A stretch of DNA of 64,000 nucleotides from Nanobdellota archaeon (GTDB taxonomy: Archaea > Nanobdellota > Nanobdellia > Woesearchaeales > WJKV01): NCBI GenBank assembly GCA_023133595.1, contig JAGLWF010000004.1:42917-106916 (forward strand), in the 5' to 3' direction. Shown here in pieces: positions 4,230 through 51,500 of this stretch. Position numbers and translations under genes: made by a program. The notes below the pieces were generated by a model. It worked only from the letters and a program-made list of their open reading frames with translations, had not been told where the DNA came from and did not search any database. The stretch's first letter is position 1, and each line of letters opens with the position of its first letter.

Positions 4230-4231
4230 TT

Positions 4232-32805: not shown

Positions 32806-35169
32806 TTAATCTTTCCATTTGGAGATGCGGTTATTAAACCAATCAGCAACATATATATTCCCAGAACTATCTACATGCACACCCATAGGGAATCCAAAGG
32901 ATTGATAATCTGAATTCTGAACCGATGGTGCAGAACCAATTTGCCAGTTGTTTGAAGCGCCACCGATCCAGCCAACTGCATTTCCATTCGAATCCCACTT
33001 TGAAATCCGATGATTATCTCGTTCAGAGACGTAAATATTACTACCATTGGAATCAACAAAAACTCCAGTAGGATAATTAAAGCTTTGATAATCTGTACCA
33101 GAAGATGCTCCAGATGTAGTTTTCCAACCATCAGATCCACCGCCAATCCATCCAAGAGAATTACCATTTGAATCCCACTTAGAAACACGGTGATTGGCAA
33201 AATCAGCTACATAAATGTTACCATTGCTATCCACAAAAGTTCCATTACAACCACTAAAACTTTTGTAATCTGAACTTCCAGAAGATGGGACATAACTTTG
33301 CTGCCAACCATCAAAACCATGACCGATCCAGCCTTGAGCATTTCCACTCGAATCCCATTTCGAAATACAATGATGATGGGGGATATACATATTACCGCTA
33401 CTATCTACAAAAACATGGCTTGGTGCAAAAAAGCTTTGATAATCTAATGCTCCAGTAAAAACTCCATTAGTAACTTTCCATCCATTAGAAGCTCCTCCTA
33501 TCCAGCCATGTGTACCTGCAGTAGTAAACCATTTTGATACTCTGTGATTATAAAAATCTGCGATATAAATATCATTCCCTCTAACAAAAACACCTGTTGG
33601 ATTATTAAAACTTTGATAATCATCTGCATAAGTAGATGGGGCAGATCCAGTTTTCCAATTATTAGTTCCGCCTCCGAACCAACCTGTTGCAATCCCAACA
33701 CTGGACCAGGTAGATATACGATGGTTTTGCTTATCCGCAACATAAATAGTTCCTGATTGATCAACAAAGACACCGCTAGGTGCAAAAAAACTTTTAAAAT
33801 CTGCTCCAGAATAGGGTGTAGAACCTGTCTGCCAACTATTTGAACCACTACCTATCCATCCAATTGCGTACACGTAATCCATTTTTTTCTGCAAAGTGTC
33901 TCCAGAAGAATGATTTGGAACTTCATCTTTTGTAAATATAGCATAAAAATAATCGCCGTCTGATAGTCCTGAATCTGTAGCAGATTGGTCACTGCCCTCG
34001 TAAACTAGAGTTCCATCAGTAGGACTGGTTGGGAATGAACTTTGTTTTCTACGGAGAACAACACCAACAAAATCACTATCACTAGGATTTGTCCAGGAAA
34101 AATCAATTGCATTTCCATTAATATTACCAGTAAAACCAGAAACATCTCTAGGTGCGATTCCATCCAAAGGAGTTGCAGAGGACCCTATTCCAGAAGAAAA
34201 ATTAGGAATCTCATCCTGCGCAAAGATTGTGTAATAATGCACAATCTCTTCTGTCAATCCTGTATCTGTAAAAGAAGTTGTTTCTCTATTTCCATATCCA
34301 TCAAAGATTACTGTTCCATCATTAGGATCTACTGAAAAAGAATCAAGCTTTCTAAGAACCACAACACCGCTAAAATCTGGATCTGTGGGGTTTTCCCAAG
34401 AGATATCAACTTGATTATTTCCAGCTGTTAGAACCAAGTTAGTAATAAATCCCGGAGAAGTTGCATCAAATGGCGTTGCTGAAACTTCTTGGCTAACAGT
34501 CATATTCTGTGAAGAATCATAAGCAAAAGCTTTGTAAATATAATTTGCATTATCCATTACTCCAGGATCAACAAAAGATTCATCCAAGCCATCGTAAACA
34601 ATAGTATCACCTTCATAACCATTACGTCTTCTCACTATCTTAACACCTGCAAGATCAAAATCACTAGGATTTTTCCAGGAAAGTAGTACAGACATATTTC
34701 CAGGCTGTGCAATTAATTCTGAGACTGCTCCGGGAGCTGTTGTATCAAATGCTATTGCTGAAGCTGATACTCCATGAGAACCTCCTGCCTCCTTAAAAGA
34801 ACGTGTAAAAATCTTGTAACAATAAAGAATAGCTGGTTCTAAACCAGTATCAACATAGGATTCATCTGCGCCTTGATATATCATAGTTCCATCAGTATAA
34901 TCTATTGGGGCCAGATTTTCCTTTCTACGAATCATGACATTTGCAAAATCTGTAAAAGAAGGATTATCCCACGATAAATCAACTTCTCGCTCCCCACCTA
35001 TTGCAGTAAACTCAGTTGCTTGATGCGAAGTATCTATAATTCTTGTTTCTTCTTCATCACATCCACCACCAAACAAAAGCCCAGCACCTAGCAACGCAGT
35101 TGTACCAATCTTACCGACAGTGCTTCCTAGAAGATTCTTCACACTTCCGAGTAAATTTTCTAATGCCAT
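32806..35169 (-). CDS. FN3-NHL lipoprotein paralogue 1 (4 FN3-like, 6 blades)
   Basis: LLFGGGC lipobox; GWIGGGSNGWKT...YQSF..P.GVFVDS.GNIYVAD..NHRISKWDSNGN repeats. Confidence 0.85.
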   Translation of the reverse strand: MALENLLGSVKNLLGSTVGKIGTTALLGAGLLFGGGCDEEETRIIDTSHQATEFTAIGGEREVDLSWDNPSFTDFANVMIRRKENLAPIDYTDGTMIYQGADESYVDTGLEPAILYCYKIFTRSFKEAGGSHGVSASAIAFDTTAPGAVSELIAQPGNMSVLLSWKNPSDFDLAGVKIVRRRNGYEGDTIVYDGLDESFVDPGVMDNANYIYKAFAYDSSQNMTVSQEVSATPFDATSPGFITNLVLTAGNNQVDISWENPTDPDFSGVVVLRKLDSFSVDPNDGTVIFDGYGNRETTSFTDTGLTEEIVHYYTIFAQDEIPNFSSGIGSSATPLDGIAPRDVSGFTGNINGNAIDFSWTNPSDSDFVGVVLRRKQSSFPTSPTDGTLVYEGSDQSATDSGLSDGDYFYAIFTKDEVPNHSSGDTLQKKMDYVYAIGWIGSGSNSWQTGSTPYSGADFKSFFAPSGVFVDQSGTIYVADKQNHRISTWSSVGIATGWFGGGTNNWKTGSAPSTYADDYQSFNNPTGVFVRGNDIYIADFYNHRVSKWFTTAGTHGWIGGASNGWKVTNGVFTGALDYQSFFAPSHVFVDSSGNMYIPHHHCISKWDSSGNAQGWIGHGFDGWQQSYVPSSGSSDYKSFSGCNGTFVDSNGNIYVADFANHRVSKWDSNGNSLGWIGGGSDGWKTTSGASSGTDYQSFNYPTGVFVDSNGSNIYVSERDNHRISKWDSNGNAVGWIGGASNNWQIGSAPSVQNSDYQSFGFPMGVHVDSSGNIYVADWFNNRISKWKD

Positions 35170-35170
35170 T

Positions 35171-37252
35171 CTAATCCTGCCATTTAGAGATTCGACGATT
35201 CATTGAGTCTGCGATATAGATATTTCCATTTGCAGCAACACAAACTCCTTTGGGTCCATAATATCCTGATATCCCAAAACTTTGATAATCATTTGCAGCA
35301 GATGCTCCAGAAACTTTTTGCCAACCATTAGAATTGCCACCAATCCATCCTGCAGGAGTTCCATCACTAGATCTTTTACAAACTCGATAATTATCTCGAT
35401 CCGCTACATAAATATTCCCATTTGAATCAATAAAAATACTGTCAGGCCTTCTAAAACCTTTATAATCCGATGTATAGAAAGGATTATTACCTGTTTGCCA
35501 ACCATCAAAAGTGCCTCCAAGCCAACCTATTGCATTGCCAGAATCACTCCATTTTGAAATTCTTTCGTTAGTAGAATCTGCTATGTAAATATCGCCATTA
35601 AAAACAAAAACATCTGCCGGATATGCAAAATATTTTAATCCATTGTTTATATTGGACCATTGTGGATTTGCATTATCTGTTCTCCAATTATCTTGACCAT
35701 CACCGATCCAGCCAATAGCGTTTCCTTGAGCGTCCCATTTAGAGATTCTATGATTATGGCGTTCTGCAACGTAGATATTTCCATCACCATCCACAAAAAT
35801 ACCTTTTGGATAATTAAAACTTTGGTAATCAGAACCAGAAGAAGCACCATCAGTTGTTTTCCAACCATTTGAACCTTCACCTATCCAGCCAAGAGCATTT
35901 CCTTGAGCATCCCATTTACAAACACGATGATTTTGATAATCTGCTATATAGATATTTCCATTATTATCAATAAAAATACCTTTCCCACCCATCAAACTTT
36001 GATAATCTAAACCCCCTGAACAACTACTGCTTGTTTTCCAACCATTGGACCCTCCACCTATCCAACCAATAGCATTGCCCGTGCTATCCCATTTACAAAT
36101 TCTAGCAGAATCTGCTACATAAATATTTCCATTAGAATCAAGAGCAACATCTTCTGGGAAAAAAAAACTTTGATAATCAGTAGCACTGGAAGTTCCAGGA
36201 TAAGTTTTCCAACCATTTGAACTGTCACCAATCCAACCCAGAGCATACACATAATCTAGTTTTTTTTCTAAATTTTGCCCAGAAGAATGATTTGGGATTT
36301 GGTCAAAAGTATAAATTGCGTAGAAATAATTGCCATCATCTAAATTAGTATCTCGAAGATATTGCCCTGCTCCCTGGTAAACAACAGTTCCATCTGATCG
36401 ATTAATCGGAGCAGTTTCTAAATTTTTAACGACAATTACTCCAGCAAAATCAGAATCAATAGGATTTAGCCATGAAAGAGTTACAGACCATTTATGTATA
36501 TTTTCAGAATAATTTGGGATCATAATAAAATTAGAAACTTCTGCAGGAGGTATAAGTGGTAGTGGATTTTGCAAACCAGAATATACAATAATAGATTGAT
36601 TTGGAATATTATCAAAAGTTTGAGCACTATAATTATATGAGATATTGGAATTTAATCCATTGTCAACTGCAGATTGATCAGTTCCTCGATATACTAATTG
36701 CCCAGAAGATCCATTTATTCGCCAAATGCTAACCTCTGCAAAATCTGTATCTGTAGGATTTACCCATGATAATTGCATCCCTCCTTCTGTTGAAACAGCA
36801 ATAAATGATGTCACTGGACTAGGAGGGGTTCCATCATAAGGTCTAGCAGAAGTTATTAAATCTGAAGTCGAAATTGGGTCTGTTGGATTTACAAAAAAAA
36901 TTCGATAACAATAAAGCACATCTGCTTCTAATCCAGTATCAATATAAGATTTTTCCTCTCCTTGATAAACAAAATTTCCATCTGTTGGATTTGTAGGAAA
37001 AATTTCTTGTCTTCTACGTATCATGATCTCATCATCTCTTTTTAGGTCCCACGAAAGATTTATTTCATAATTTCCACCAGTTGCTGAAAAATTAGATTCA
37101 GCAATTGCTTCTGTCTCAACATCTTCTTCCTCAAAACATCCAGACATCCCAGCACCACCAAACAACAAGCCAGCGCCTAACCCTAAAGCACAAAAAGTAG
37201 TTCCAAGAACATTCTTCACACTTCTAACTAGACCTTCAAGACTTAACCCCAT
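35171..37252 (-). CDS. FN3-NHL lipoprotein paralogue 2 (3 FN3-like, 6 blades)
   Basis: AGMSGC lipobox; same blade motif. Confidence 0.85.
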   Translation of the reverse strand: MGLSLEGLVRSVKNVLGTTFCALGLGAGLLFGGAGMSGCFEEEDVETEAIAESNFSATGGNYEINLSWDLKRDDEIMIRRRQEIFPTNPTDGNFVYQGEEKSYIDTGLEADVLYCYRIFFVNPTDPISTSDLITSARPYDGTPPSPVTSFIAVSTEGGMQLSWVNPTDTDFAEVSIWRINGSSGQLVYRGTDQSAVDNGLNSNISYNYSAQTFDNIPNQSIIVYSGLQNPLPLIPPAEVSNFIMIPNYSENIHKWSVTLSWLNPIDSDFAGVIVVKNLETAPINRSDGTVVYQGAGQYLRDTNLDDGNYFYAIYTFDQIPNHSSGQNLEKKLDYVYALGWIGDSSNGWKTYPGTSSATDYQSFFFPEDVALDSNGNIYVADSARICKWDSTGNAIGWIGGGSNGWKTSSSCSGGLDYQSLMGGKGIFIDNNGNIYIADYQNHRVCKWDAQGNALGWIGEGSNGWKTTDGASSGSDYQSFNYPKGIFVDGDGNIYVAERHNHRISKWDAQGNAIGWIGDGQDNWRTDNANPQWSNINNGLKYFAYPADVFVFNGDIYIADSTNERISKWSDSGNAIGWLGGTFDGWQTGNNPFYTSDYKGFRRPDSIFIDSNGNIYVADRDNYRVCKRSSDGTPAGWIGGNSNGWQKVSGASAANDYQSFGISGYYGPKGVCVAANGNIYIADSMNRRISKWQD

Positions 37253-37280
37253 TTTAGCATATATATTATTGTTTTACAAG

Positions 37281-37293
37281 TTTATAAAGGTTT
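37281..37293 (-). promoter_or_regulatory. BRE/TATA-like element AAACCTTTATAAA inside the lipoprotein array
   Basis: Located in the only sizeable gap of the array, upstream of paralogue 2. Confidence 0.5.
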
Positions 37294-37309
37294 CCTGTCT
37301 GGTTTCGGA

Positions 37310-39343
37310 CTAATCTTTCCATTTGGAGACTCTGTTATTTGCAAATTCTGAAACAAAAATATTATCGTTAGTGTCAACAAAAACACTATAAGGGGCCATA
37401 AAATGTTGATATGTATATCCGCCGAAGATGCCAGAATTTGTTTTCCAGCCATCTGAACCCCCGCCAATCCAGCCAATGGCATCACCATTTAAATTCCATT
37501 TGCAGATTCGATGGTTTTGAAAATCTGCGACATATATATGTCCATTTCTAACAAAAACCCTTCTTGGGCAGCGAAAACTTTGATAATCATCACCAGCAGT
37601 TGTACCAGAACTATTCTTCCATCCATTAGAGCCTCCACCTATCCATCCAATAGCATTCCCATTGCTATCCCATCTGCTGATACGTTCATTTATTTTGTCT
37701 GCAATATAGAGCATCCCATTTTCAACAAAAATATCACTCGGGAGACTAAAACTTTTATAATCTGTGCCAGGAGAAGCTCCTGAAGTTTGTTTCCAACCAT
37801 CTGAACCTCCCCCAATCCAGCTGATTGCATTGCCAGAGCTATCCCACTTAGAAATACGATGATTACCTAAATCAGCAACAAAAACATTATTGCTATTATT
37901 CACAAAAACTGAGATTGGCCTATAAAAAAAGGTGTAATTCTGAGAATAAGCACAATTACTGCCTGTTTGCCATCCATTATACCCGCCACCGATCCAACCT
38001 TGCGCATTTCCGTTGGAATCCCATTTAGAAATTCGATTATTAAAATGATCTGCGACATATATGTTCCCATTGCTATCAACCCAAACTCCGCTAGGCCACG
38101 AAAAACTCTGGTAATCTGAGCCAGAAGATGGTGCTAAACCAGTTTTCCAGCCGTTCGAGCCCCCGCCAATCCACCCCTGAGCATTTCCATTACTATCCCA
38201 TTTACAGATACGATTATTCATAGAGTCTGCAACAAAAATATTTCCATTAATATCTACAAAAACATGATTCGGCTGATCAAAAAATTTATCTGCATAATAT
38301 CCTCCCACAACACCAGCATCTGTTCTCCAGCCATCCTGCCCACATCCGAACCAACCTTGTGCAACAACCATATCGATTGTACATAACTTAATTTCTCCAG
38401 AGGAATAATTAGAAACATCATCGTATGAAAAAATCGTGTAGAAATAATTACCATCTTGGGTAATCAAAGTGTCAGCATATGATTGTTCAGGTCCCTGATA
38501 AACTAAATCTCCCTCTGTAGGATTATAAGGTGCGAGGTCTATACATTTTCGGATCATAACCCCAGCAAAATCCACATTAGTTGGATTTGTCCAAGAAATA
38601 TTTACTATGTTATTTTGAATAGTAGTTTGAAAGTTAGATACTTCATTTGGTGGAGTTATATCAATAGTTGTACCCGATACTATTATTTGTCTAGAATGAT
38701 TTGGAACTTCATCAAAAGTATAGAATGCATAGTAATAAGTAACATTATCCTCAATTACATCAGTATCTGTAAAAGATTCACCAGTGCTTTGATATACCAC
38801 TGGTCCAGAATTCTCATCTAATGACGTTCGCCTCCAAATACAAAGTCCTGCAAAATCTGCATCTATAGGATTTGTCCAGGTTAATTCGATCGCACCAGCT
38901 TGTGGTGTAACAACAATGTTTGAAACATTTGCTGGAGGAGTTGCATCAAACGGTGTTGCAGAAACTGTTTTTTCAGAAAAATAAACAATTGGGTCTGCAT
39001 ATGAAAAAGAGAAAGCAGTATAACAGTAAAGGATCTTTGCATCCAGTCCAGAATCAACATAAGATCTTTCTCTTCCTTCGTATACTAAAGTTCCGTCAGT
39101 AGGATCTGTCGGAAAATAATCTATTTTTCTTCGAATCTTAACACCAGGCACTTCAATATTATCAGGATGTTTCCAAGAAAGCTGTACCTCATGATTTCCT
39201 GCTGTTGCTGCAAAAGTTTCAGTCTCAACAGTATCATCTTCATCTACTAGATCACATCCTCCTCCAAACAATAAACTTCCACCTAATAATAGACCGCCAG
39301 CTACATACTTCACGCCTCTGACTAAAGTTTCTATATCTATCAT
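37310..39343 (-). CDS. FN3-NHL lipoprotein paralogue 3 (3 FN3-like, 6 blades)
   Basis: Start moved to MIDIETLVRGVKY by homology to paralogues; LLFGGGC. Confidence 0.85.
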   Translation of the reverse strand: MIDIETLVRGVKYVAGGLLLGGSLLFGGGCDLVDEDDTVETETFAATAGNHEVQLSWKHPDNIEVPGVKIRRKIDYFPTDPTDGTLVYEGRERSYVDSGLDAKILYCYTAFSFSYADPIVYFSEKTVSATPFDATPPANVSNIVVTPQAGAIELTWTNPIDADFAGLCIWRRTSLDENSGPVVYQSTGESFTDTDVIEDNVTYYYAFYTFDEVPNHSRQIIVSGTTIDITPPNEVSNFQTTIQNNIVNISWTNPTNVDFAGVMIRKCIDLAPYNPTEGDLVYQGPEQSYADTLITQDGNYFYTIFSYDDVSNYSSGEIKLCTIDMVVAQGWFGCGQDGWRTDAGVVGGYYADKFFDQPNHVFVDINGNIFVADSMNNRICKWDSNGNAQGWIGGGSNGWKTGLAPSSGSDYQSFSWPSGVWVDSNGNIYVADHFNNRISKWDSNGNAQGWIGGGYNGWQTGSNCAYSQNYTFFYRPISVFVNNSNNVFVADLGNHRISKWDSSGNAISWIGGGSDGWKQTSGASPGTDYKSFSLPSDIFVENGMLYIADKINERISRWDSNGNAIGWIGGGSNGWKNSSGTTAGDDYQSFRCPRRVFVRNGHIYVADFQNHRICKWNLNGDAIGWIGGGSDGWKTNSGIFGGYTYQHFMAPYSVFVDTNDNIFVSEFANNRVSKWKD

Positions 39344-39344
39344 T

Positions 39345-41102
39345 TTAATCTTTCCATTTGGATACACACATTTTTGCCCAACAACCAGTATAGATATTGC
39401 CTGTAGTATCTACAAAAACTCCAGAAGGGCAATAAAAAGTTTGATAATCGGAAGTATCTGTATTAAATGCTCCTTGTATTGTCTTCCACCCGTCAGATCC
39501 TCCTCCGAACCAGCCACGAGCAATTCCTGAAGCCTTTTCCCATTTTGAAATTCTATGATTCCGACAATCTGCTATATAGAGGTGATCATCAGAAGAAAGA
39601 AAAACATCATACGGTTCATCGAAACTTTGAAAGGTAAAATCTGCAGTTGCTCCGCTATATGTATTCCAGCCATGCTGAGCATCTCCTAGCCACCCAACGG
39701 CATTTCCACTAGAATCCCATTTCAAAATACGATGGTTATCAGTATCTGCGATATAAATATCTCCATTAGTATCTACAAAAATTCCTTTTGGGTGATTAAA
39801 GTGTCGTAAACTAGAACCTCCATTACGATCACCTGAACTTTGTTTCCAACCATTAGATCCTCCACCGATCCATCCAATAGCAGTTGCATTTGTATCCCAT
39901 TTGCAAACACGATTGTTAAGATGATCTGCTATGTAGAAATTTCCACTGCTATCTACAAACAAGCTAGAAGGATAATCAAAACTCTGATAATCTGATGCAT
40001 TAGAAAAAGGCGGAGCACTAGTGGTTTTCCATCCATTGGACCCGCCACCAAACCAACCAATAGCATTGGCATTACTATCCCATTTACAAACACGATCGTT
40101 ATGCCAATCTGTTACATAGATATTTCCTGCAGTATCGACAAATACATCAGAAGGGGTATCAAAACTCTGAAGGTCTGTTCCGCTTGAGGTCCCTGAAGTT
40201 TGTTTCCAACCATTTGACCCTCCTCCAATCCAACCAAGAGCATTACCTGCACTATCCCATTTGCATATTCTATTATTTGAACTATCTTTTACAAAAATAT
40301 TTCCACTACTATCAACAAAGATACTTCCAGGTTGATCAAAACTTTGAAAATCTGAACCTATAGATGGTGTTGACGTTTGTTTCCATCCATTTGATCCATT
40401 TCCAATCCAACCAACTGCATAGACAGAGTCATGCCTGAGTGAGATTGTTGCCCTAGAAGAATAATTAGGGATATCATCAAATGAAAAGATCGAATAGAAG
40501 TAAGGAACATTTTCAGGTAATCCTGAATCGGTATAAGATTGACCAGAACCTTGATAGACAAAAGCATCGTTTGTATGGGATGTTGGATAAGAAACAGTTC
40601 CTCTTCGGATAATCACCCCATCAAAATCAGGAGCAGTAGGATTTGTCCAGGAAAGTTCTATTCCTGCAGCAGTGGAAGTTGCTGAAATATAATTTACCAT
40701 TCCAGGAGAATTGTAATCATAAGGAGTTGCAGAAGCTGCCTTTGGAGTATAAATTATTGGATCTTCAATTGAATAAGGAAAAGCAGAATAACAATAAAGT
40801 GTTCCAGGAGATACTGCTGTATCAATATAAGCTTGTCCTAAACCGTCATAAACTAACGTACCATCTTGAAGATCAGCTGGAAAAGTATCAACCTTTCTCA
40901 TGATCTCGGCACCACAGGTTGGTGCTGTTTTCCATGAAAGAGTTACTTGACGTTCTCCAGGTTCTGCTCTAAAATCTGATAAATTCTCTTTTTCAACATC
41001 ATCGTCATCAGCACATCCACCAAACAATAAAGCACTACCTAACAACAAGCCGCCTGCGAGATACTTCACATCATTGACCAAACTTTCTATACCTAATACC
41101 AT
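39345..41102 (-). CDS. FN3-NHL lipoprotein paralogue 4 (2 FN3-like, 6 blades)
   Basis: ALLFGGC lipobox; same blades. Confidence 0.85.
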   Translation of the reverse strand: MVLGIESLVNDVKYLAGGLLLGSALLFGGCADDDDVEKENLSDFRAEPGERQVTLSWKTAPTCGAEIMRKVDTFPADLQDGTLVYDGLGQAYIDTAVSPGTLYCYSAFPYSIEDPIIYTPKAASATPYDYNSPGMVNYISATSTAAGIELSWTNPTAPDFDGVIIRRGTVSYPTSHTNDAFVYQGSGQSYTDSGLPENVPYFYSIFSFDDIPNYSSRATISLRHDSVYAVGWIGNGSNGWKQTSTPSIGSDFQSFDQPGSIFVDSSGNIFVKDSSNNRICKWDSAGNALGWIGGGSNGWKQTSGTSSGTDLQSFDTPSDVFVDTAGNIYVTDWHNDRVCKWDSNANAIGWFGGGSNGWKTTSAPPFSNASDYQSFDYPSSLFVDSSGNFYIADHLNNRVCKWDTNATAIGWIGGGSNGWKQSSGDRNGGSSLRHFNHPKGIFVDTNGDIYIADTDNHRILKWDSSGNAVGWLGDAQHGWNTYSGATADFTFQSFDEPYDVFLSSDDHLYIADCRNHRISKWEKASGIARGWFGGGSDGWKTIQGAFNTDTSDYQTFYCPSGVFVDTTGNIYTGCWAKMCVSKWKD

Positions 41103-41103
41103 T

Positions 41104-42897
41104 TTAATCCTGCCATGTAGAGATACGGTTGTTTGTTACTTCTGCAATAAACATTTTACTACTTCCATCAACAAAAATACTTCTTGGAGTGCTGAAATTT
41201 CTATAATCCGAACCGCTAGTTACTAATCTTCCTGTTTTCCAACCATCAAAACCATTACCAATCCAACCAAACGCATTTCCGTTTGAATCCCATCTACAGA
41301 TACGATTATTTGCAGTGTCTGCAATATAAATACTACCATTTAAATCTACGAACACATCACGAGGTTCATTGAAACTCTTATGATCAGTTCCCGAAGAAGT
41401 TCCTAAAGTTTGTTTCCAACCATTAGAACCTCCACCGATCCAACCAATAGCATTTCCACTAGCATACCACTTAGATATTCGGTTATTTCCGTGATCAGCA
41501 ACATAAATAAAATTATTATGATCTACAAAAACACTGGTTGGTGCTAAAAAACTCTTATAATCAGAAGCAAAATTTACTGATGATCCATTCTGCCATCCGT
41601 CCTGTCTATTTCCTATCCATCCAACAGCATTGCCCCCCCCAGTCCATTTACAGATACGGCTATAACCATCAACAACATACATATTTCCGACACTATCAAG
41701 AGCTAATCCAATTGGAAACCAAAAACTTTGATAATCTGAACCAGAAGATGCTCCATTAGTTTGTTTCCAACCGTTAGAACCTCCACCGATCCAACCAACA
41801 GCATTACCATTACTATCCCATTTACTGACTCTATTATTTTGACGATCAAGAACATACAAATTACCAGATCCATCAACACAAATATCTGTAGGTGAACTAA
41901 AACCACGATAATCAGAAACTTGCGGTACAGACAGCGGAGAAGAAGTTTTCCATCCATCAGAACCTCCACCAATCCAAGCAACAGCATTACCAGCACTATC
42001 CCATTTTGTAACCCGATTATTCAACTGATCAGCAACATAAATATTTCCAGAAGAGTCAACACAAATTCCATAAGGATAACAGAAACTTCTTAAATCATGA
42101 CCAAAAACAGCGTCATTAGTTGTTTTCCATCCATCTGAACCTGCACCAATCCATCCGATAGGAGTTACTGTATCTGATTTCTCAGGTAGTGGAGTTTCAG
42201 TGTGAGTATTCCCAAAAGAGAAATTATTAGAATCATCATATGTATAAATTCTATAAAAATATGTAACTCCTACTGTTAAATTTCCATCAACAAGCTCTGT
42301 TTGACTATTTCCATCATAAACTAAATCTCCATCAGAAGGTCCAGTTATATTAGAACCAGTTTTTCTTCTAAGAATTACTCCAGCAAAATCCGGATCTGTT
42401 GGAGGTGTCCATGAAATTTCAATTGCTCCTTCAATTTGGTAAGTACCAAAAGTCAGCACTTCTCCAGGAGGAATTCCATCAAACGGAGTAGCTGATGCTT
42501 CCAATGACGAATAAGAATAAGTTGGATTCGAATATGAAATTACAAAGGCTTTATAACAATATAAAACATCTGCCTCTAATCCACTATCAATATAAGATGA
42601 TTCTTGGCCTTCATAAACCAGAGTACCATCATCTATATCGGTTGGAACAGTATCTTGTTTCCTTTGGATATGTATATCTGAGTCTTCTTCATCTTTAGGT
42701 AATTTCCAAGAAAGAGCCACTTCGTAACTTCCAGCTGTTGCAGAAAGAAATATTTCATCAACTACCATAGGATCCTCTTCTTCATCACATCCACCACCAA
42801 ACAAAAGCCCGGCACCTAGTAAAACAGTTGTACCGACCTTCCCGACAGTGCTACCTAGAAGATTCTTCACACTTCCGAGTAAACTTTCTATTCCCAT
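41104..42897 (-). CDS. FN3-NHL lipoprotein paralogue 5 (2 FN3-like, 6 blades)
   Basis: LLFGGGC; same blades; G8 tract inside. Confidence 0.85.
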   Translation of the reverse strand: MGIESLLGSVKNLLGSTVGKVGTTVLLGAGLLFGGGCDEEEDPMVVDEIFLSATAGSYEVALSWKLPKDEEDSDIHIQRKQDTVPTDIDDGTLVYEGQESSYIDSGLEADVLYCYKAFVISYSNPTYSYSSLEASATPFDGIPPGEVLTFGTYQIEGAIEISWTPPTDPDFAGVILRRKTGSNITGPSDGDLVYDGNSQTELVDGNLTVGVTYFYRIYTYDDSNNFSFGNTHTETPLPEKSDTVTPIGWIGAGSDGWKTTNDAVFGHDLRSFCYPYGICVDSSGNIYVADQLNNRVTKWDSAGNAVAWIGGGSDGWKTSSPLSVPQVSDYRGFSSPTDICVDGSGNLYVLDRQNNRVSKWDSNGNAVGWIGGGSNGWKQTNGASSGSDYQSFWFPIGLALDSVGNMYVVDGYSRICKWTGGGNAVGWIGNRQDGWQNGSSVNFASDYKSFLAPTSVFVDHNNFIYVADHGNNRISKWYASGNAIGWIGGGSNGWKQTLGTSSGTDHKSFNEPRDVFVDLNGSIYIADTANNRICRWDSNGNAFGWIGNGFDGWKTGRLVTSGSDYRNFSTPRSIFVDGSSKMFIAEVTNNRISTWQD

Positions 42898-42907
42898 TTT
42901 AAAAAAA

Positions 42908-44167
42908 TTATCCGCCCATTTTTCTTAGCATTTGTAAGAGAGCGAATCGTATTGAACCTTCACTTGTATTATTCCATTCAAAAGGTTTAAAATTTGGTTT
43001 AATTGTGTTTGTTATCAGATCTATGTGTAAAACATCCTGAGTGTAGACTCCAGTTCCTCTTGCTGCGTTCATAGCATTAATTGCTTGTAGTTCAACAGGA
43101 TCAGTAGTACGGCCTCCCGGAGGATAGTTAATTTCTACAAGTAATTTTTTATTTCCAAAAGTAATATACAGATCATACAAAAACTGTGTTGATGTGACTG
43201 AATTTGAGATGGTTGTATGATCAGATTTTATATCATTATAACCATAACTTGAAAAAAGATCACATGTAATATTTATAGCCATACTTCGCGCATTGTATGT
43301 AACTCCGCTATAGTTTCGTGATGCAATGGAGGAACCAAAATATTCTTTCATCATATCTTGTGTTAATAAAGTCATAGCACCATTTGTGCTTGTAAACAAC
43401 GCAGCAATATCTGGAGCTCCATCCCATCCTATCCCAGAGAATTTATAATTGTCTGAAAAACCTGCAGCACTAGTATTTCCTATCAAGATAACAGAACCAT
43501 CACTCATACGAATTGAATATCCAAGATGACTTGAAATACTGCTACTTGAAGTAAAAGAATTTCTTATTGCAGACATATTAGTCCATACTGCCCCTTTATG
43601 ATTTACGTCTGGGAGACATCCAATAGTATCAAAATAATCATCCCAGTCTAATCTTGAAATAAATTGTTCTGAAACAGCATCAGCTTCTCCTTCAGGGATG
43701 ATTGAAGCATTAATCAAGACAGTAGGAATATGAAAAGGTGGATCTGTTTCATAAAATGCTGTTGCAGACGATGTTCTTTCTTCTGTATAATTTGTTGGTT
43801 CTGTATACGTGAAAAAAAATGCTTTGTAAAAATAAAGAATATTTTGAGTCAAACCAGAATCAGTATGTTCTGTTCCACTACCTTCGTATACTAAAACTCC
43901 ATCAAATTCATCTGTTGGAAAATCATCTATATCTCTTCTGATCATTACTCCTGGTCGTTCTAGATAATCTGGATATTCCCAAACTAGATTTACCTTCTGA
44001 TGTCCTGCAGTTGCTGCAAAATCAGGTACTTCTGGAGGTCTTGCTTCTTCTTCATCACACCCCCCACCAAACAACAAGCCAGCACCTAGCAACGCAGTTG
44101 CCCCAATCTTCCCAACAGTACTTCCAAGAAGATTCCTCATTCCGCCGAGTAAACTTTCTATTCCCAT
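42908..44167 (-). CDS. Paralogue 6: same lipoprotein N-terminus and one FN3-like module, with a different C-terminal domain
   Basis: MGIESLLGGMRNLLGSTVGKIGATALLGAGLLFGGGCDEEEA shared; no GWIGGG blades. Confidence 0.85.
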   Translation of the reverse strand: MGIESLLGGMRNLLGSTVGKIGATALLGAGLLFGGGCDEEEARPPEVPDFAATAGHQKVNLVWEYPDYLERPGVMIRRDIDDFPTDEFDGVLVYEGSGTEHTDSGLTQNILYFYKAFFFTYTEPTNYTEERTSSATAFYETDPPFHIPTVLINASIIPEGEADAVSEQFISRLDWDDYFDTIGCLPDVNHKGAVWTNMSAIRNSFTSSSSISSHLGYSIRMSDGSVILIGNTSAAGFSDNYKFSGIGWDGAPDIAALFTSTNGAMTLLTQDMMKEYFGSSIASRNYSGVTYNARSMAINITCDLFSSYGYNDIKSDHTTISNSVTSTQFLYDLYITFGNKKLLVEINYPPGGRTTDPVELQAINAMNAARGTGVYTQDVLHIDLITNTIKPNFKPFEWNNTSEGSIRFALLQMLRKMGG

Positions 44168-44168
44168 T

Positions 44169-45941
44169 TTAATCTTGCCACTTGGAGATACGATGATTTT
44201 TACTATCTGTTACATAAATAAATCCATTATTGTCCACAAAAACGCCTTGGGGTTGATAGAAACCTTTTTCATCAGAACTAAAAGATGTTCCATCACTTTT
44301 CTGCCAACCATTATGTTCACCACCCATCCAGCCTACTGCAGTTCCATCTAAATTCCATTTACAGATACGATGATTCATACGATCAGCTATATAGAGAAAT
44401 CCATTTGCAATTGCAATATTATGTGGCTGACTAAAACTTCTATAATCTGAACCAGCATTACTAATCGGATCAGTTCTCCATCTATCCTGTCCTTCACCAA
44501 TACATCCAATTGCAGTTCCATCTAAACTCCATTTAGAAACACGATTACAACTATAATCAGCGATATAGATATGCCCATTTTCATCATCTATAATTAATCC
44601 AGAAGGATAAAGAAAACTATGATATCCTACACAGCCCGAGGTTGGAGCTGAACCTGTTTGCCAACCATTTTGTCCGTTACCTATCCATCCAAGAGAATTG
44701 CCTGCAGAGTTCCATTTACAGACTCGATGATTCTGAAAATCTGCAACATAGATATTACCATTTGCATCTACTGCAACATCACGTGGTAGACTAAAACTTT
44801 GCTGGCTTGTGCCTGAGGAGGTTCCAGTAACTGTTTTCCAACCATTTGAATCTCCACCAATCCAGCCTTGGACATTACCACTACTGTCCCATTTAGAGAC
44901 GCGATTATTATATGTATCTGCAACATATATATCCCCGTTAGAAGCAATAAACATTCCTTGCGCAACTAAAAAACTCTTATAATCACTGCCCTGTGTTGCA
45001 CCACTCCAAGTTTGCCAGCCATCTTGCCCAACACCAATCCAGCCTTGGGCACTAGCGGTACTAGTCCATTTATCTACACGAGCATTGCCAGAATCTAAAA
45101 CATAAATGAATCCATTTGCATCAACAGAGACATCATATGGATGTTGAAAACTTTGATAATCATTTGCCCAATTAGCTCCATTACCTGTTTTCCAGAAATT
45201 TGACCCTCCTCCAAGCCATCTGAGAAAATAAACATTATCAAAATCAATAAATAAAGTTTCACCCGAAGAATGATTTCCAGAATGATCGTAAGCAAAAGCG
45301 GCATAATAATATTGTCCATCTCCTGTAGCTATACCATCTACGACTTGTTGACCTGGACCTTGGTATACAAAATCACCATCATCTTGATCTACAGGAAAAG
45401 CTCCTTGTTTTCTTCTTACTATAACGCCTGCAGAATCAAATACTAAATTATTGTTCCATAAAAGTTTAATATAAATATTAGATTGTTCCCATCCTAAGTT
45501 TGAGATATTCGGGGGGGGAGTAGTATCATAAGGTGTTGCAGAAGCTGTCATTTCTAAAGTTGGATCCTGTGACATGAAGAAGAATATCTTATAGAAATGT
45601 TCAACACTCGGTTCTAATCCAGTATCAGAAATAGACTCTAAAGTAGATCCTTCATAAAGTAAAATACCATCATTTGTATCGATTGGAAAAGAACCTGTTT
45701 TTCTTCTTAACATAGCGCCCTTAAAAGTATCATCGTCTGGGTTTGTCCAAAAGAGAGTTGCTTCACGCTCGCCAGCTGTAGCTGATAAGCTATATCCTGA
45801 TTTTGGCTCAATTATATCTTCCTCCTGACCACATCCGCCACCAAACAACAAACCAGCGCCTAACAACGCAGTTGCACCAATCTTACTGACAGTGCTTCCA
45901 AGAAGATTCTTCACACTTCCGAGTAAGTTTTCTAAGGCCAT
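44169..45941 (-). CDS. FN3-NHL lipoprotein paralogue 7 (2 FN3-like, 6 blades)
   Basis: LLFGGGC; same blades; C8 coding tract. Confidence 0.85.
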   Translation of the reverse strand: MALENLLGSVKNLLGSTVSKIGATALLGAGLLFGGGCGQEEDIIEPKSGYSLSATAGEREATLFWTNPDDDTFKGAMLRRKTGSFPIDTNDGILLYEGSTLESISDTGLEPSVEHFYKIFFFMSQDPTLEMTASATPYDTTPPPNISNLGWEQSNIYIKLLWNNNLVFDSAGVIVRRKQGAFPVDQDDGDFVYQGPGQQVVDGIATGDGQYYYAAFAYDHSGNHSSGETLFIDFDNVYFLRWLGGGSNFWKTGNGANWANDYQSFQHPYDVSVDANGFIYVLDSGNARVDKWTSTASAQGWIGVGQDGWQTWSGATQGSDYKSFLVAQGMFIASNGDIYVADTYNNRVSKWDSSGNVQGWIGGDSNGWKTVTGTSSGTSQQSFSLPRDVAVDANGNIYVADFQNHRVCKWNSAGNSLGWIGNGQNGWQTGSAPTSGCVGYHSFLYPSGLIIDDENGHIYIADYSCNRVSKWSLDGTAIGCIGEGQDRWRTDPISNAGSDYRSFSQPHNIAIANGFLYIADRMNHRICKWNLDGTAVGWMGGEHNGWQKSDGTSFSSDEKGFYQPQGVFVDNNGFIYVTDSKNHRISKWQD

Positions 45942-45942
45942 T

Positions 45943-48336
45943 TTAATCTTGCCATTTGGAAACTCTGTTATTTCCAGAGTCTGTTACATAGATAGTACCA
46001 TTGCCATCAACAAAAACCCTTCTTGGATACCAAAAACTTTTATCACCAGAACCAGCAGAAGTTCCTGGTCCTGTCTTCCATCCATCAGAACCTCCGCCAA
46101 TCCAACCGATAAGATTTCCATTGTTATCCCATTTAAAGACTCGATGGCCAGTACCTATTGAATAAGTATTGCCATTTGGATCTGTAAATACTATCGAAGG
46201 TGCTGGAACAGAAGTACCTAGATAATTTCCAGAATTACTCCATACTTGCAATCCTCGATAATCAAGTACATTGATATTCAAATCTCCACCAACAGTGACA
46301 TGATAAGGGTAATAAAATTTTCTAGGATTATCCTCATCAAAATGGTGGATATAAGTTGTCCCCGCATGCGTGTTCCACCCGTCATCTCCATCTCCGATCC
46401 AACCGCGAGCATCACCATTCGCATACCATATAGAGATGCGGTGATTATAAGAATCTGCGACATGAATATTTCCATTATTATCAACAGATACACCACGAGG
46501 ATTATCAAAACTTTGATAATCAGAACTATAAGGAGGTGCCAGGCCAGTCTTCCATCCATTAGAACTCCCTCCAATCCAGCCAATTGCATTTCCATTGAGA
46601 TCCCATTTAGAAATTCGGTTATTCCATCTATCACTCACATAAATATTTCCATTATGAAGAAAAATTCCTGTCGGAGCTCTAAAAGAATTAAAATGTGCAG
46701 TTGAGATAGCACCAGAGGTTGTCTTCCATCCACTAGAACCTTCTCCAATCCAACCAACAGCAGTTCCATTCTCATGCCATTTTGAAATTCTATGATTGTT
46801 TGAATCCACAACATAAATATATCCATTAAAGTAAAAAGTTCTTTGCGGATTACTAAAACTCTGATGATCAGAAGCAGATGTCGCACCAGGCCCGGTTTTC
46901 CATCCGTCAGAACCTCCACCAATCCAGCCAATGATATTATCTAAACTGTCTTTCTTCAAGACACGATTATTTGTTGATTCTGTATAATAAATATTACCTC
47001 CCAAATCTCTTGTTTTAAAGATATCTGATGAATGTCCGCTATCACAATAATGTCCTGCACTATTCCATCTTGAGACTCCATTCCAATCAGAAACAAAAAT
47101 ATCACCAGCACCATTGACTGATACACGAGAAGGATATTTTAATCCTGGATTTACCCAACTATTATCTGAGAAAAAAGGATTTGCCCAAGCTGCTGAATCT
47201 GTCCGCCACCCGTTCTGTCCTCCACCAATCCAACCTACGGCATTTCCATTAGCGTCCCATTTACAAACACGATAATTGAGAAAATCTGCAATATATATAT
47301 TTCCTTCAGAATCAAGAACAAGAGACATAGGAGAATCAAAGCTTTGATAATCCCCCCAGTTAGCAGATGCGCCATCATTTGTTTTCCAACCATTACTTCC
47401 TCCGCCAATCCAACCTAGTGCATTCCCATTATTATCCCATTTGCAGATTCGATTTTGTTCAGTATCTGCAACATAAATGTTTTCATTAAAGTCAACGAAA
47501 ATACCACGAGGAAAATAAAATCTATTAAATTCATTATCATTAAAAGAGCCAAGCCCGGTTTTCCATCCATTAGAACCCCCTCCAATCCAGCCGACAGGAG
47601 AGACGTGATCTAATTTTCTTAATAAATTCAAACCAGGCGAAAAATGAGGGACTTCATCGTAAGTGAAAACAGTATAATAATAATATTCTCCTTCTGTCAA
47701 CCCATTATCTGTACATGATTCTCCTGAACCCTCATATATTAATACACCGTCATCTTTATCTGTCGGAAAAGAACCTGCTTTTTTCCTTACTATTACACCA
47801 ACAAAATCAAAATCTTCAGGATTTTTCCAAGTGATATCAAAAGAAGTTGCTTTAGGAACAGTTCCAAAATCTAAGACTTCTCCAGGCGGAGTACAATCAT
47901 AAGGAATTGCAGAGCTTATCCTTCCATTTGAAAATACTTGTGGTTCTGTATAGGTGAAAGAGAAAACTCGATAACAATAACGAATGTCGTAGCCCAATCT
48001 CATATCTGTATACGAATCTGCTGTACCTTCATATACTAATTCACCATCAGAAAAATCTGTTGGAAAAGAATCCACTTTTCTTCTTATCATTACACCAGGA
48101 ACTTCCATTCTTTTTGCATGCTCCCAGGACAAATTTACTCTACGATCTCCAGCAACAGCTGAGAGTTCTGATACCTCATTAGAATCTGTAACTTGATCTT
48201 CTTCCTCAAAACATCCAGAAAGTCCAGCCCCGCCTGACAACAGACCAAGGCCTAATAGTGCTGTAGTGCCAAAATATCCAATAGTGGTCCCTAGAAGACG
48301 CTTCACACTCCCAACCAGGCTTTCCAGACCAGCCAT
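45943..48336 (-). CDS. FN3-NHL lipoprotein paralogue 8 (2 FN3-like, 8 clear plus 2 degenerate blades)
   Basis: AGLSGC lipobox; blade motifs. Confidence 0.85.
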   Translation of the reverse strand: MAGLESLVGSVKRLLGTTIGYFGTTALLGLGLLSGGAGLSGCFEEEDQVTDSNEVSELSAVAGDRRVNLSWEHAKRMEVPGVMIRRKVDSFPTDFSDGELVYEGTADSYTDMRLGYDIRYCYRVFSFTYTEPQVFSNGRISSAIPYDCTPPGEVLDFGTVPKATSFDITWKNPEDFDFVGVIVRKKAGSFPTDKDDGVLIYEGSGESCTDNGLTEGEYYYYTVFTYDEVPHFSPGLNLLRKLDHVSPVGWIGGGSNGWKTGLGSFNDNEFNRFYFPRGIFVDFNENIYVADTEQNRICKWDNNGNALGWIGGGSNGWKTNDGASANWGDYQSFDSPMSLVLDSEGNIYIADFLNYRVCKWDANGNAVGWIGGGQNGWRTDSAAWANPFFSDNSWVNPGLKYPSRVSVNGAGDIFVSDWNGVSRWNSAGHYCDSGHSSDIFKTRDLGGNIYYTESTNNRVLKKDSLDNIIGWIGGGSDGWKTGPGATSASDHQSFSNPQRTFYFNGYIYVVDSNNHRISKWHENGTAVGWIGEGSSGWKTTSGAISTAHFNSFRAPTGIFLHNGNIYVSDRWNNRISKWDLNGNAIGWIGGSSNGWKTGLAPPYSSDYQSFDNPRGVSVDNNGNIHVADSYNHRISIWYANGDARGWIGDGDDGWNTHAGTTYIHHFDEDNPRKFYYPYHVTVGGDLNINVLDYRGLQVWSNSGNYLGTSVPAPSIVFTDPNGNTYSIGTGHRVFKWDNNGNLIGWIGGGSDGWKTGPGTSAGSGDKSFWYPRRVFVDGNGTIYVTDSGNNRVSKWQD

Positions 48337-48390
48337 TGTATATCTATTATGGACATAGAACTTTATAAAGTTTACCTGTTGTAATTGTTA

Positions 48391-49470
48391 CTACATCAAC
48401 ATGCTGTCTTTTATGATGATATATCCTTTCTTAGCCTTTATGATGTATTCCTTATCATCCTTCAGATCAGCCATTTTCACGAAATTCTCAGGCAGGAGCA
48501 CCCTCTCCCCCCTGAAATCAAGGTTTGTGATGATCTCGTACGAAGGCTTGGGCTTGTCTATGGATCTCAACACTTCTCCAAACCCGTTCTTTGTCTTTAT
48601 GAGCTTGAACTCTTTTGCCTTGTCGTAGAGGGCTTTTGCTATCTTGTCAGCCACATTTATGTTTGAAGCTTTTGATATTCCTGTGATGCCAGGAGACAGG
48701 TTTGCTTCGAGTATGAGCGGACTTTTAGGGCCTTTTAGTATGTCTATTGCAACAACATCGCATCCAAGTGCTTTCGCAGCTTTTACAGCCATCTTCTGCG
48801 TCTCATTATCCAGAATACAAAGCGTGCAGACACCGCCTGAATGAAAACCTGAACGGATCTCACCTTTTTTCGCAGTTCTTGTATAGGAAACAACAACTTT
48901 TCCAGCTGCAACAATCGCCCTTATGTCAGTACCAGCAGTCTCTACAAATTCTTGTATGATAAAAGGTTGTTTCAGTACAACCAGTGCGTCACACATAGAG
49001 CTTGCAGATGCATAACTCTCAGCATACAACACACCTTTGCCGTGCGTTCCCTGCGGTAATTTGATCATGACAGGATAATTTAGATTTTCCAGAGCTTTTT
49101 TTGCAGCAGAAGATGTTGCAGCAATGTACGCAGCTGGCATTGGAATCTTTTTTCGCAGGAAATGCAGCTGCGTAAGAAATTTATCATTTGCAATGATAAA
49201 AGAGTTATGATGCAGTGGAAGATAAGTCTTTTCTCTTAACGCAGCTGTCAATGACGACAGGACAGAAGCATAACGGAAAGACCCGCGTGCATAGATACAG
49301 TCATACTCCCCCAGCAATTTTCCATCACACATGACCTGGAAACCGTCTGATATGAATGCGACTTCAACATCTTTCAGAGAGAGATGATCAACAACATCAA
49401 AATATTTGTTCATAGCTTCAGCTATCATCTTGGAACTTTGGCTTCCCAATGATAGAACAGCTGCTCGCAT
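48391..49470 (-). CDS. RimK-like ATP-grasp ligase
   Basis: YPVMIKLPQGTHGKGVLYAES...FIIQEFVETAGTDIRAIVAAGKVVVSYTR...ILEANLSPGITGI. Confidence 0.85.
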   Translation of the reverse strand: MRAAVLSLGSQSSKMIAEAMNKYFDVVDHLSLKDVEVAFISDGFQVMCDGKLLGEYDCIYARGSFRYASVLSSLTAALREKTYLPLHHNSFIIANDKFLTQLHFLRKKIPMPAAYIAATSSAAKKALENLNYPVMIKLPQGTHGKGVLYAESYASASSMCDALVVLKQPFIIQEFVETAGTDIRAIVAAGKVVVSYTRTAKKGEIRSGFHSGGVCTLCILDNETQKMAVKAAKALGCDVVAIDILKGPKSPLILEANLSPGITGISKASNINVADKIAKALYDKAKEFKLIKTKNGFGEVLRSIDKPKPSYEIITNLDFRGERVLLPENFVKMADLKDDKEYIIKAKKGYIIIKDSMLM

Positions 49471-49496
49471 TCTCCCCCCCGATTTATTTATTATTT

Positions 49497-49838
49497 TTAT
49501 TTAATCTTAGGATCAATCAAAAAATCTTCTTTTCGAAGTATATTCCGACCGATCAGCACGCGATACAACATCTCGTGCCTATCTGCTAACGTGAAATATC
49601 CTGAAACAATCTGATCTTTTATTTTAACTTTTATCTTTACAACCAGCCGTTCTTTTGTACCGCCAGATACAGATCTTATCTTTGTTGTCTTCAGAACTTT
49701 ATCAAGGCCTAGTTTTGCTGCCAACTCTCTGTCAATCGAACTTTTAGAAGCGCCAGTGTCAATCCTGGCAATAGCTGTCTTTTCTGCATCACCTGCAAAG
49801 ATTGTTATCTTCTCGGTCAGGCCTAAGATGGTTTTCAT
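49497..49838 (-). CDS. RimB-like retropepsin-fold protein (PF05618-type)
   Basis: ARIDTGASKSSIDRELAAKLGL...LIGRNIL. Confidence 0.75.
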   Translation of the reverse strand: MKTILGLTEKITIFAGDAEKTAIARIDTGASKSSIDRELAAKLGLDKVLKTTKIRSVSGGTKERLVVKIKVKIKDQIVSGYFTLADRHEMLYRVLIGRNILRKEDFLIDPKIK

Positions 49839-51370
49839 TCTTTTTCCTTGACTTCTTCTCCAGTATAAGGTTTATCGACCTTTACATCGATGACATGTTC
49901 CTCTGTAGGTTTCATTGTTGGGAATGGTATTGCGTCCCGGATAGATTTTGCATTTGTAAGTAAGATTGCCATCCTCTCTGTTCCGACTCCAACACCACTC
50001 ATTGGCGGCATTCCAATCTCTACTGCCTGCAGAAAATCTTCATCAACAGGATGTATCTCTTCTTCTCCTGCTCTTCCTTGCTCTGCTTGTTCAAGAAGAA
50101 GTTTCCTCTGCAACACAGGATCATTCAGTTCTGAATATCCATTGCATATCTCCCAACCATTGATATAGGATTCGAATCTTTCTAATAGAGTCGGATCCCC
50201 TCGAAGCGTCTTGCACAATGGAATTGTTTCTTTCGGATGATGTATCAGGTGCACTGGCCCGATCAATTTATCTTCGCACAATTCGTCGAAGATAGCTGCA
50301 ATAGCAAGACCTCTGTTGTAATCTCCATCCAGTTCAATTGCATTTGTCGCCATCACATCCTTGATATCAGCGTCAGACATATTGTCAACATTCATGTTTG
50401 CATATTTCTTTATTGCTTCTTTCATCTCAAGTTTTGGCCACGGTGGTGTCAGGTCTATCTCAACATCCTGATAATTTATCTTTGTTGTTCCCAAGACTTT
50501 CTTTGCAACATATGCGTACATGTCTTCGACCAATTTCATTGTAAAATTATAATCTACATATGGTACGTAAACTTCCATCATTGAAAATTCTGGATTATGT
50601 GTCTTGTCAACACCTTCATTCCTGAAATTCTTGCACAATGTGTAGACTGCACCCATCCCGCCAATGACCAATCTTTTCAAGTAGAGTTCAGGCGAGACAC
50701 TCAAATAAAGATCCATGTCCCATGCATTGATATGCGTTGTGAATGGACGTGCCATTGCACCGCCGTAGACAGTCTGCAGTATCGGTGTATCCAGTTCAAT
50801 GTATCCTTTGTTGTTCAGGAATTCACGCACAGCAGTAAAGATCTGTGAACGTTGTAATAATATTTTTCTTGATTCCGGACTCATGACCAGATCAAGTTCT
50901 CTTTTCCGGTATTTAGTTTCCTGATCTTTCAGTCCGTGGAATTTCTCAGGCAATGGACGGATAGATTTTGCCAATAATTCAAATCCAGTCGCATAAACAG
51001 TCAACTGTCCTGTCCTTGTTTTGAAAATATATCCTTTCACACCAATCCAGTCGCCGATATCTAATTTCCGGAACAATTTGTACTTCTCATCTCCGACATC
51101 ATCTTTCCTGACATAGATCTGCATCCGTCCTGATTCATCCATGACATCAGCAAAACTTGCTTTTCCCATTTCACGTTTCAACATTATCCGACCAGCAATA
51201 ACTAGCTTGACATCAGGTTTTTTTTCCTCTGCTGCAAGCTTGTTATACTCTGCCAGCAGCTTGCCGATAAAGTCAGTTCTAGGAAAAGAATACGGATAAG
51301 GTTCCACTTCCATCTCACGTATGTCTTTCAGTTTGTTGATACGTTCCTGTACAAGTCTGTCGGTTGCCAT
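49835..51370 (-). CDS. lysS: Lysyl-tRNA synthetase, class II
   Basis: Anticodon-binding OB fold then YRKRELDLV, RNEGVDKTHNPEFSMMEVY, GVGVGTERMAILLT; start at MATDRLVQ. Confidence 0.92.
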   Translation of the reverse strand: MATDRLVQERINKLKDIREMEVEPYPYSFPRTDFIGKLLAEYNKLAAEEKKPDVKLVIAGRIMLKREMGKASFADVMDESGRMQIYVRKDDVGDEKYKLFRKLDIGDWIGVKGYIFKTRTGQLTVYATGFELLAKSIRPLPEKFHGLKDQETKYRKRELDLVMSPESRKILLQRSQIFTAVREFLNNKGYIELDTPILQTVYGGAMARPFTTHINAWDMDLYLSVSPELYLKRLVIGGMGAVYTLCKNFRNEGVDKTHNPEFSMMEVYVPYVDYNFTMKLVEDMYAYVAKKVLGTTKINYQDVEIDLTPPWPKLEMKEAIKKYANMNVDNMSDADIKDVMATNAIELDGDYNRGLAIAAIFDELCEDKLIGPVHLIHHPKETIPLCKTLRGDPTLLERFESYINGWEICNGYSELNDPVLQRKLLLEQAEQGRAGEEEIHPVDEDFLQAVEIGMPPMSGVGVGTERMAILLTNAKSIRDAIPFPTMKPTEEHVIDVKVDKPYTGEEVKEKE

Positions 51371-51500
51371 AATAACTCTATTGTACAGGTCCAATTTAAA
51401 AACTTTTTGATAAAAATCGTGGATAAGTTTGCTACGAGAACAATACATTCCATATGAAAAAATCCCTGGCACCAAAAGGATAAAGCTATAATCCAAGCTG

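Follow-up and report, generated by a model that had tools for sequence, protein, structure and literature searches.

An archaeal array of eight paralogous predicted lipoproteins, seven of them with NHL propellers, as a candidate repertoire of surface recognition proteins

In the eukaryotic TRIM-NHL proteins (LIN41/TRIM71, Brat, Thin, and Mei-P26), six NHL blades form a closed ring with an N-terminal velcro strand, and the same five positions in each blade make up the upper, ligand-binding face. Here, we describe an archaeal gene array in which most of the propellers appear to share these properties. Unlike the TRIM-NHL proteins, however, the array proteins are predicted to be exported lipoproteins that carry the ring on an FN3-like stalk; they lack RING, B-box, and filamin domains, their blades are longer (57 to 62 residues, with a fifth strand), and RNA is unlikely to be the ligand outside the cell. 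Six similar NHL blades are also found in the designed protein Pizza6, Pizza proteins being the best PDB sequence matches, and in the natural propeller of PknD. However, Pizza6 has 42-residue blades and is symmetric by design, PknD is a kinase sensor, and neither has a lipoprotein stalk.

Other described systems resemble the array in part. A hypervariable Ig-domain module of the Thermococcales (PMC8416519) provides a parallel in that archaeal immunoglobulin-domain proteins are discussed there for self/nonself recognition; its abstract mentions no propeller, and in our array it is the paralogues within a single genome that vary. The top NCBIfam cross-match was to ScyD, ScyE, and ScyF and ran through the NHL repeats; at 80 to 96 bits it lies far below the curated equivalog cut-off of 350, and membership in these scytonemin families was rejected. 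A likeness to Tachylectin-2-like lectins also was rejected, there being no match in Pfam and no sequence match in the PDB. Literature searches returned no description of a W-type propeller lipoprotein family (W-type blades being those with the tryptophan motif described below).

Organization of the array and its leaders

The array lies within a 64-kb stretch of DNA (the window) and consists of eight minus-strand genes encoding proteins of 419 to 797 residues, which run from position 48336 down to 32806 (Table 1). The first-pass annotation of the window had described eight consecutive genes with a common lipoprotein leader, and the open reading frames and aligned leaders agree with this. The host genome comprises 1.37 Mb and is 91.7% complete. 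By eye, the gene content of the window is archaeal, including a Pth2-type peptidyl-tRNA hydrolase, a TrmB-like regulator, and a PAC2-like protein. Among named genomes, a Woesearchaeota MAG holds the nearest relative of the array proteins, which points to a DPANN/Woesearchaeota host. Elsewhere in the window (2289-5218), and again by eye, a CHASE2-like adenylate or guanylate cyclase adjoins a FecR-like protein, a pairing of signalling proteins that would not be expected in so small a genome of an archaeon.

Table 1. Positions of the array genes and associated features in the window
Feature	Position	Strand	Description
Gene 8	45943..48336	-	First gene of the operon; 797 aa; lipobox leader, 2 FN3-like domains, 8 W-type and 2 short NHL blades in two homologous halves of five
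Gene 7	44169..45941	-	590 aa; leader, 2 FN3-like domains, six-bladed W-type NHL propeller (aa 241-590)
Gene 6	42908..44167	-	419 aa; leader, one FN3-like domain, then orphan domain of ~270 aa, without propeller
Gene 5	41104..42897	-	597 aa; leader, 2 FN3-like domains, six-bladed propeller (aa 248-597); modelled
Gene 4	39345..41102	-	585 aa; leader, 2 FN3-like domains, six-bladed propeller (aa 231-585)
Gene 3	37310..39367	-	685 aa as listed; leader, 3 FN3-like domains, six-bladed propeller (aa 338-685)
Gene 2	35171..37252	-	693 aa; leader, 3 FN3-like domains, six-bladed propeller (aa 339-693)
Gene 1	32806..35169	-	787 aa; leader, 4 FN3-like domains, six-bladed propeller (aa 437-787)
Candidate TATA box	48362..48370	-	CTTTATAAA; 26-34 nt upstream of gene 8
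Candidate TATA box	37281..37289	-	CTTTATAAA; in the 57-bp gap (sole larger gap), upstream of gene 2
Leader-coding segment, gene 1	35048..35174	-	Reference copy of the 127-nt family
Leader-coding segment, gene 5	42776..42902	-	91% identical to gene 1 copy
Leader-coding segment, gene 6	44046..44172	-	84% identical to gene 1 copy; joined to the non-propeller head
Leader-coding segment, gene 7	45820..45946	-	87% identical to gene 1 copy

In the order of transcription, the intergenic gaps measure 1, 1, 10, 1, 1, 57, and 1 bp; gene 3 probably starts at an internal ATG at 39343 instead of at the listed GTG. The tight spacing, together with a TATA-like site, suggests that the eight genes may be coexpressed. 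The box CTTTATAAA occurs eight times in the window, against 1.3 expected, and its two copies at the array are candidate promoters, of which one possibly serves genes 8 to 3 and the second genes 2 and 1. The array is preceded (48391-51496) by a cassette of genes for LysRS, a retropepsin-like protease-family protein, and a RimK-like ATP-grasp enzyme, which other members of the order have for the most part retained. In these relatives the array is absent beside the cassette; the contig of a same-family relative ends soon after it.

The leaders share a hydrophobic region that ends in GGC, GGGC, or (M/L)SGC, and in the aligned members the lipobox cysteine invariably follows GG(G) or (M/L)SG; it is present in gene 6 as well, although the residue at -3 is atypical in several proteins. 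From these features, the eight proteins are predicted to be exported and lipid anchored via the lipobox cysteine and are probably anchored at the surface. At the DNA level, the 127-nt leader segments of genes 1, 5, 6, and 7 are 84 to 91% identical, while the gene bodies are only about 50 to 60% identical and near saturation. One of these leaders sits in front of the orphan head encoded by gene 6. The pattern is explained most simply by recombination at the level of the leader or by an exchange of heads, and we infer that such recombination may swap heads, with gene 6 as an example. Gene 6 has no Pfam NHL match, and no homologue of its head (ca. 270 residues) was found in 338 genomes of the order, viral contigs, Pfam, NCBIfam, PHROGs, or PADLOC. 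In Woesearchaeota Bin_473, a second lipoprotein with the same long style of leader lies directly upstream of the propeller gene (L041:2324-3427).

Propeller and stalk architecture

Seven of the genes match the Pfam NHL model (PF01436) at 84 to 143 bits against a cut-off of 20. The propeller repeat of about 60 residues that had been noted in these seven is sound, as is the earlier count of six blades in six of them: genes 1 to 5 and 7 each have exactly six W-type blades of 57 to 62 residues, and gene 8 has ten blades. The propeller runs from GWIGG to (K/T)W(K/Q)D. Its last blade usually stops after strand C and its first residues form strand D, so that the ring would close by the usual velcro arrangement.

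Structure prediction had been set beforehand as the check on which the propeller assignment could fail. The AlphaFold model of gene 5, made from an alignment of 14 sequences, contains a closed ring (pLDDT per block mostly 84 to 97, with 69 in the lowest block), and in Foldseek it aligned with the complete six-bladed NHL domains of Thin, TRIM2, and TRIM71, the TM scores normalised to the target being 0.89 to 0.92. The model thus supports a closed six-bladed NHL ring for gene 5 and, by alignment, for the other six-bladed genes. In nearly every blade of the model, DSSP assigned five strands, with strand E (GWKT) following the usual A to D, of which D is AIGWIG. Ordinary NHL blades have four strands and about 42 to 47 residues; blades in TRIM71 are spaced 47 residues apart, which puts the excess in the array blade at about 12 residues. 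As modelled, the array blade is a variant of the NHL repeat that is longer by an added fifth strand and leaves the fold unchanged. The first-pass annotation had ascribed the greater length to a W-rich insertion. The blade is indeed longer, but GWIGG is strand D, which ordinary blades also possess, and the extra residues are those of strand E (GWKT) and a long return loop.

In gene 8, the two short blades lack the W motif and the two halves of five blades are 48% identical; judged from its sequence, this propeller is a 5+5 duplication. In Vps10/sortilin-type propellers, ten blades form a single closed ring. The ten blades of gene 8 are counted from sequence, and its AlphaFold model is of low confidence over several of them. 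A ten-bladed NHL ring and a pair of five-bladed rings would each be unusual. A ninth copy of the family, which has six blades behind three FN3-like domains, sits by itself on another contig (C1, L031:8757-10880), and all of the PF01436 NHL repeats that we found in the genome belong to this copy or to the array.

The number of FN3-like modules falls from four in gene 1 to one in gene 6. The earlier description of one to four such modules per protein agrees with these counts and with the model of gene 5, in which two stalk domains have seven strands each, the strand number of an FN3 sandwich. It finds less support in Pfam, where fn3 reaches 19 bits against a cut-off of 25, so that by this measure the domains are FN3-like only; DUF4959 passes its cut-off in gene 1 only.

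The variable, presumed contact face

We scanned 48 W-type blades for entropy over the 59 columns that were filled well enough. Five columns stand out at 3.3 to 3.9 bits, against a mean of 1.45 for the remainder: two positions before the conserved P, one after it, and two after VAD. Since 48 random draws from the composition of the proteins would give 3.77 bits, these positions are close to free. By the DSSP strand order, they would lie where strand A begins and within the loop between strands B and C, and hence on one face of the ring. For the complex of the zebrafish LIN41 (DrLIN41) NHL domain with RNA, 14 RNA contacts have been published (PMC5908797); when these were located in the sequence of TRIM71 from residue letter and spacing, every one of the 14 mapped onto the five variable positions. 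Between array propellers, identity at the contact positions is 8% (10% would be expected by chance from composition), compared with 54% in the framework, and it remains at about 9 to 12% however similar the frameworks are. Y/F/W (22% versus 13%) and K/R (12% versus 6.5%) are enriched at the variable positions, and aliphatic residues are depleted (9% versus 18%). The bottom loops (DSNGN and DSNGNA) are also exposed yet stay conserved, so exposure alone fails to explain the variable face.

Codon identity at identical residues is 0.52 to 0.55, against 0.49 expected; that is, synonymous sites are near saturation. The copies are therefore old, and the likeness of their conserved framework is not due to chance, the framework having been kept by selection at the protein level. 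By the same token, free drift and diversifying selection are indistinguishable at the variable positions. Recent amplification of blades was rejected on the same codon identities and because neither blades of one gene nor blades at the same position resemble each other more than other blades do.

As a control, we used 37 ordinary NHL blades from five plasmid records, 26 of them from a single Chloroflexota plasmid. The same five positions were the most variable, with a mean of 3.10 bits versus 1.07 elsewhere (3.48 versus 1.12 in the array). A variable face is thus a general property of prokaryotic NHL rings that is sharper in the array; the control weakens any case for its being unique to the array, and what is particular to this locus is the array rather than the variable face. 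In a Candidatus Chlorohelix plasmid (L118), several six-bladed NHL proteins are encoded beside FHA-domain proteins and a Ser/Thr kinase.

These results bear on the earlier proposal of a fixed head on a stalk of variable length. For the scaffold it holds: six blades recur in six of the seven propeller genes, the ninth copy, and the majority of the bacterial relatives, and the FN3 count varies. However, the presumed ligand face differs almost completely between paralogues, and gene 6 has no propeller. Because that face has diverged, "repertoire" is better supported than "fixed head".

Distribution and proposed function

The W-type propeller was found in 2 of 353 genomes of the order, the host genome and Woesearchaeota Bin_473, and no further clear carrier was seen among 371 genomes drawn from the phylum, where the other matches were weaker NHL repeats. 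No orthologous array was found in a sister genome among the order and phylum genomes searched. The comparison of array size in related genomes, suggested at the outset, thus returned the array only here and a single gene, broken over two contigs, in Bin_473. The protein of the latter (WJKI01) shares the leader style, a pair of FN3-like domains, and the W-type propeller but is not part of an array. Its closest relative is the ninth copy (66% identity over 195 aa; tree support, 86/92), the sole supported pairing in a propeller tree that is otherwise mostly unresolved. On this basis, the ninth copy seems to be the older of the two loci, the array having apparently arisen by a lineage-specific expansion.

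The W-type propeller also occurs in MAGs labelled Kuenenia, Spirochaetes, and Nitrosomonadales, in lipoproteins that share the GWIGGG..GW motif, blades of 59 to 60 residues, rings of six (once with two rings per protein), and a lipobox leader. In contrast to the array, these are present in single or few copies, their stalks are by eye CARDB-like, kelch-like, or FN3 in a C-terminal position, and no eight-gene array was seen. A protein from Bdellovibrionales, which has more blades, is related more loosely. Viral relatives were rejected, since the matches lay largely in the FN3-like part. The W-type propeller is therefore rare and patchy, and the eight-gene array was seen only in the host genome. 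Such scattered occurrence suggests transfer between domains of life.

On balance, we think it more likely than not that the operon codes for recognition lipoproteins tethered at the surface, a repertoire with a constant scaffold and a variable face, each paralogue being predicted to have a different ligand. Each protein would be exported, cleaved at the lipobox cysteine, and anchored through it, and a stalk of one to four FN3-like domains would raise the head. The bottom loops and strands of a rigid six-bladed NHL ring would remain constant, while on the upper face five exposed positions per blade would supply about 30 freely varied contact residues per ring. Each paralogue would thereby bind a different surface ligand, with partner cells, sugars, or envelope polymers as candidates, and the proteins may serve in recognition or attachment, as adhesins or receptors, in contact with a host. 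The repertoire is supported by the tight operon, the NHL ring, the variable face that matches the LIN41 contacts, the enrichment in Y/F/W and K/R, and the recurrence of six blades and a leader in bacteria.

The main rival is drift on a redundant envelope protein, in which the copies would form a structural or matrix surface layer and the upper faces would vary through lack of constraint. With synonymous sites near saturation, drift would suffice, and ordinary NHL proteins vary similarly at the five positions; unconstrained residues, however, would not be expected to be rich in aromatics and Arg/Lys and poor in aliphatics, and exposure alone fails to account for the pattern, since the exposed bottom loops stay conserved. 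We regard this explanation as unlikely. Less likely still, though conservation among the archaeal and bacterial members is highest in the W motif, is that all of the copies bind one common ligand in a lectin-like manner through the invariant Trp/Gly framework (GWIGGGSNGW), with the copies providing avidity and the variable positions playing no part. In the model, however, the motif makes up the D and E strands of each blade and so looks structural, and no lectin family was matched in Pfam beyond chance.

Active rewriting of the propellers by a diversity-generating retroelement (DGR) or recombination, as in a phase-variable antigen system, appears very improbable. A DGR-type reverse transcriptase and a TR/VR pair are indeed present in the genome, and the leader DNA is homogenised among four genes, but the TR and VR lie together on another contig (C37), the TR matches only its own VR and not the array, and no template-adenine pattern is seen in the codons of the variable positions; on these grounds, diversification of the array by the DGR was rejected. 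Moreover, there are no near-identical cassettes inside the propellers, the best pair of blades having 74% DNA identity. We give as little credence to enzymatic or electron-transfer propellers, for example of the lactonase or quinoprotein kind. Weak cross-matches to SGL, arylesterase, and similar propeller models exist but are general to propellers and mostly below or near cut-off. Furthermore, propeller enzymes usually have their active site on the upper face, and this is the least conserved part of the array proteins, contrary to what an enzyme family would show.

The DGR on contig C37 (L088:482-2751) is an observation in its own right. Its reverse transcriptase has LGNWTSQ and YVDDF motifs, the TR lies near 1625-1722, and the VR lies near 2031-2115 inside a neighbouring gene (1987-2751). 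In the TR/VR core, all 15 substitutions are from template A to G, alongside deletions of 15 and 2 nt; DGR substitutions at template A are usually to mixed bases.

Returning to the repertoire, a more specific form of it is that the locus is a germline-encoded panel of seven NHL rings (eight with the unlinked copy) with unrelated faces of about 30 residues, through which a small, probably partner-dependent archaeon would recognize several partners or surface polymers at once, heads being swapped behind a homogenised leader. We offer this only tentatively and consider it less probable than the repertoire as such. To our knowledge, little is established about how DPANN archaea select and retain their partners, and this locus provides concrete candidate recognition proteins with named residues. 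In addition, the positions at which the NHL domain of LIN41, a eukaryotic protein, contacts RNA are those that prokaryotic propellers vary freely, so that NHL rings behave as a natural binder with a constant scaffold and a variable face.
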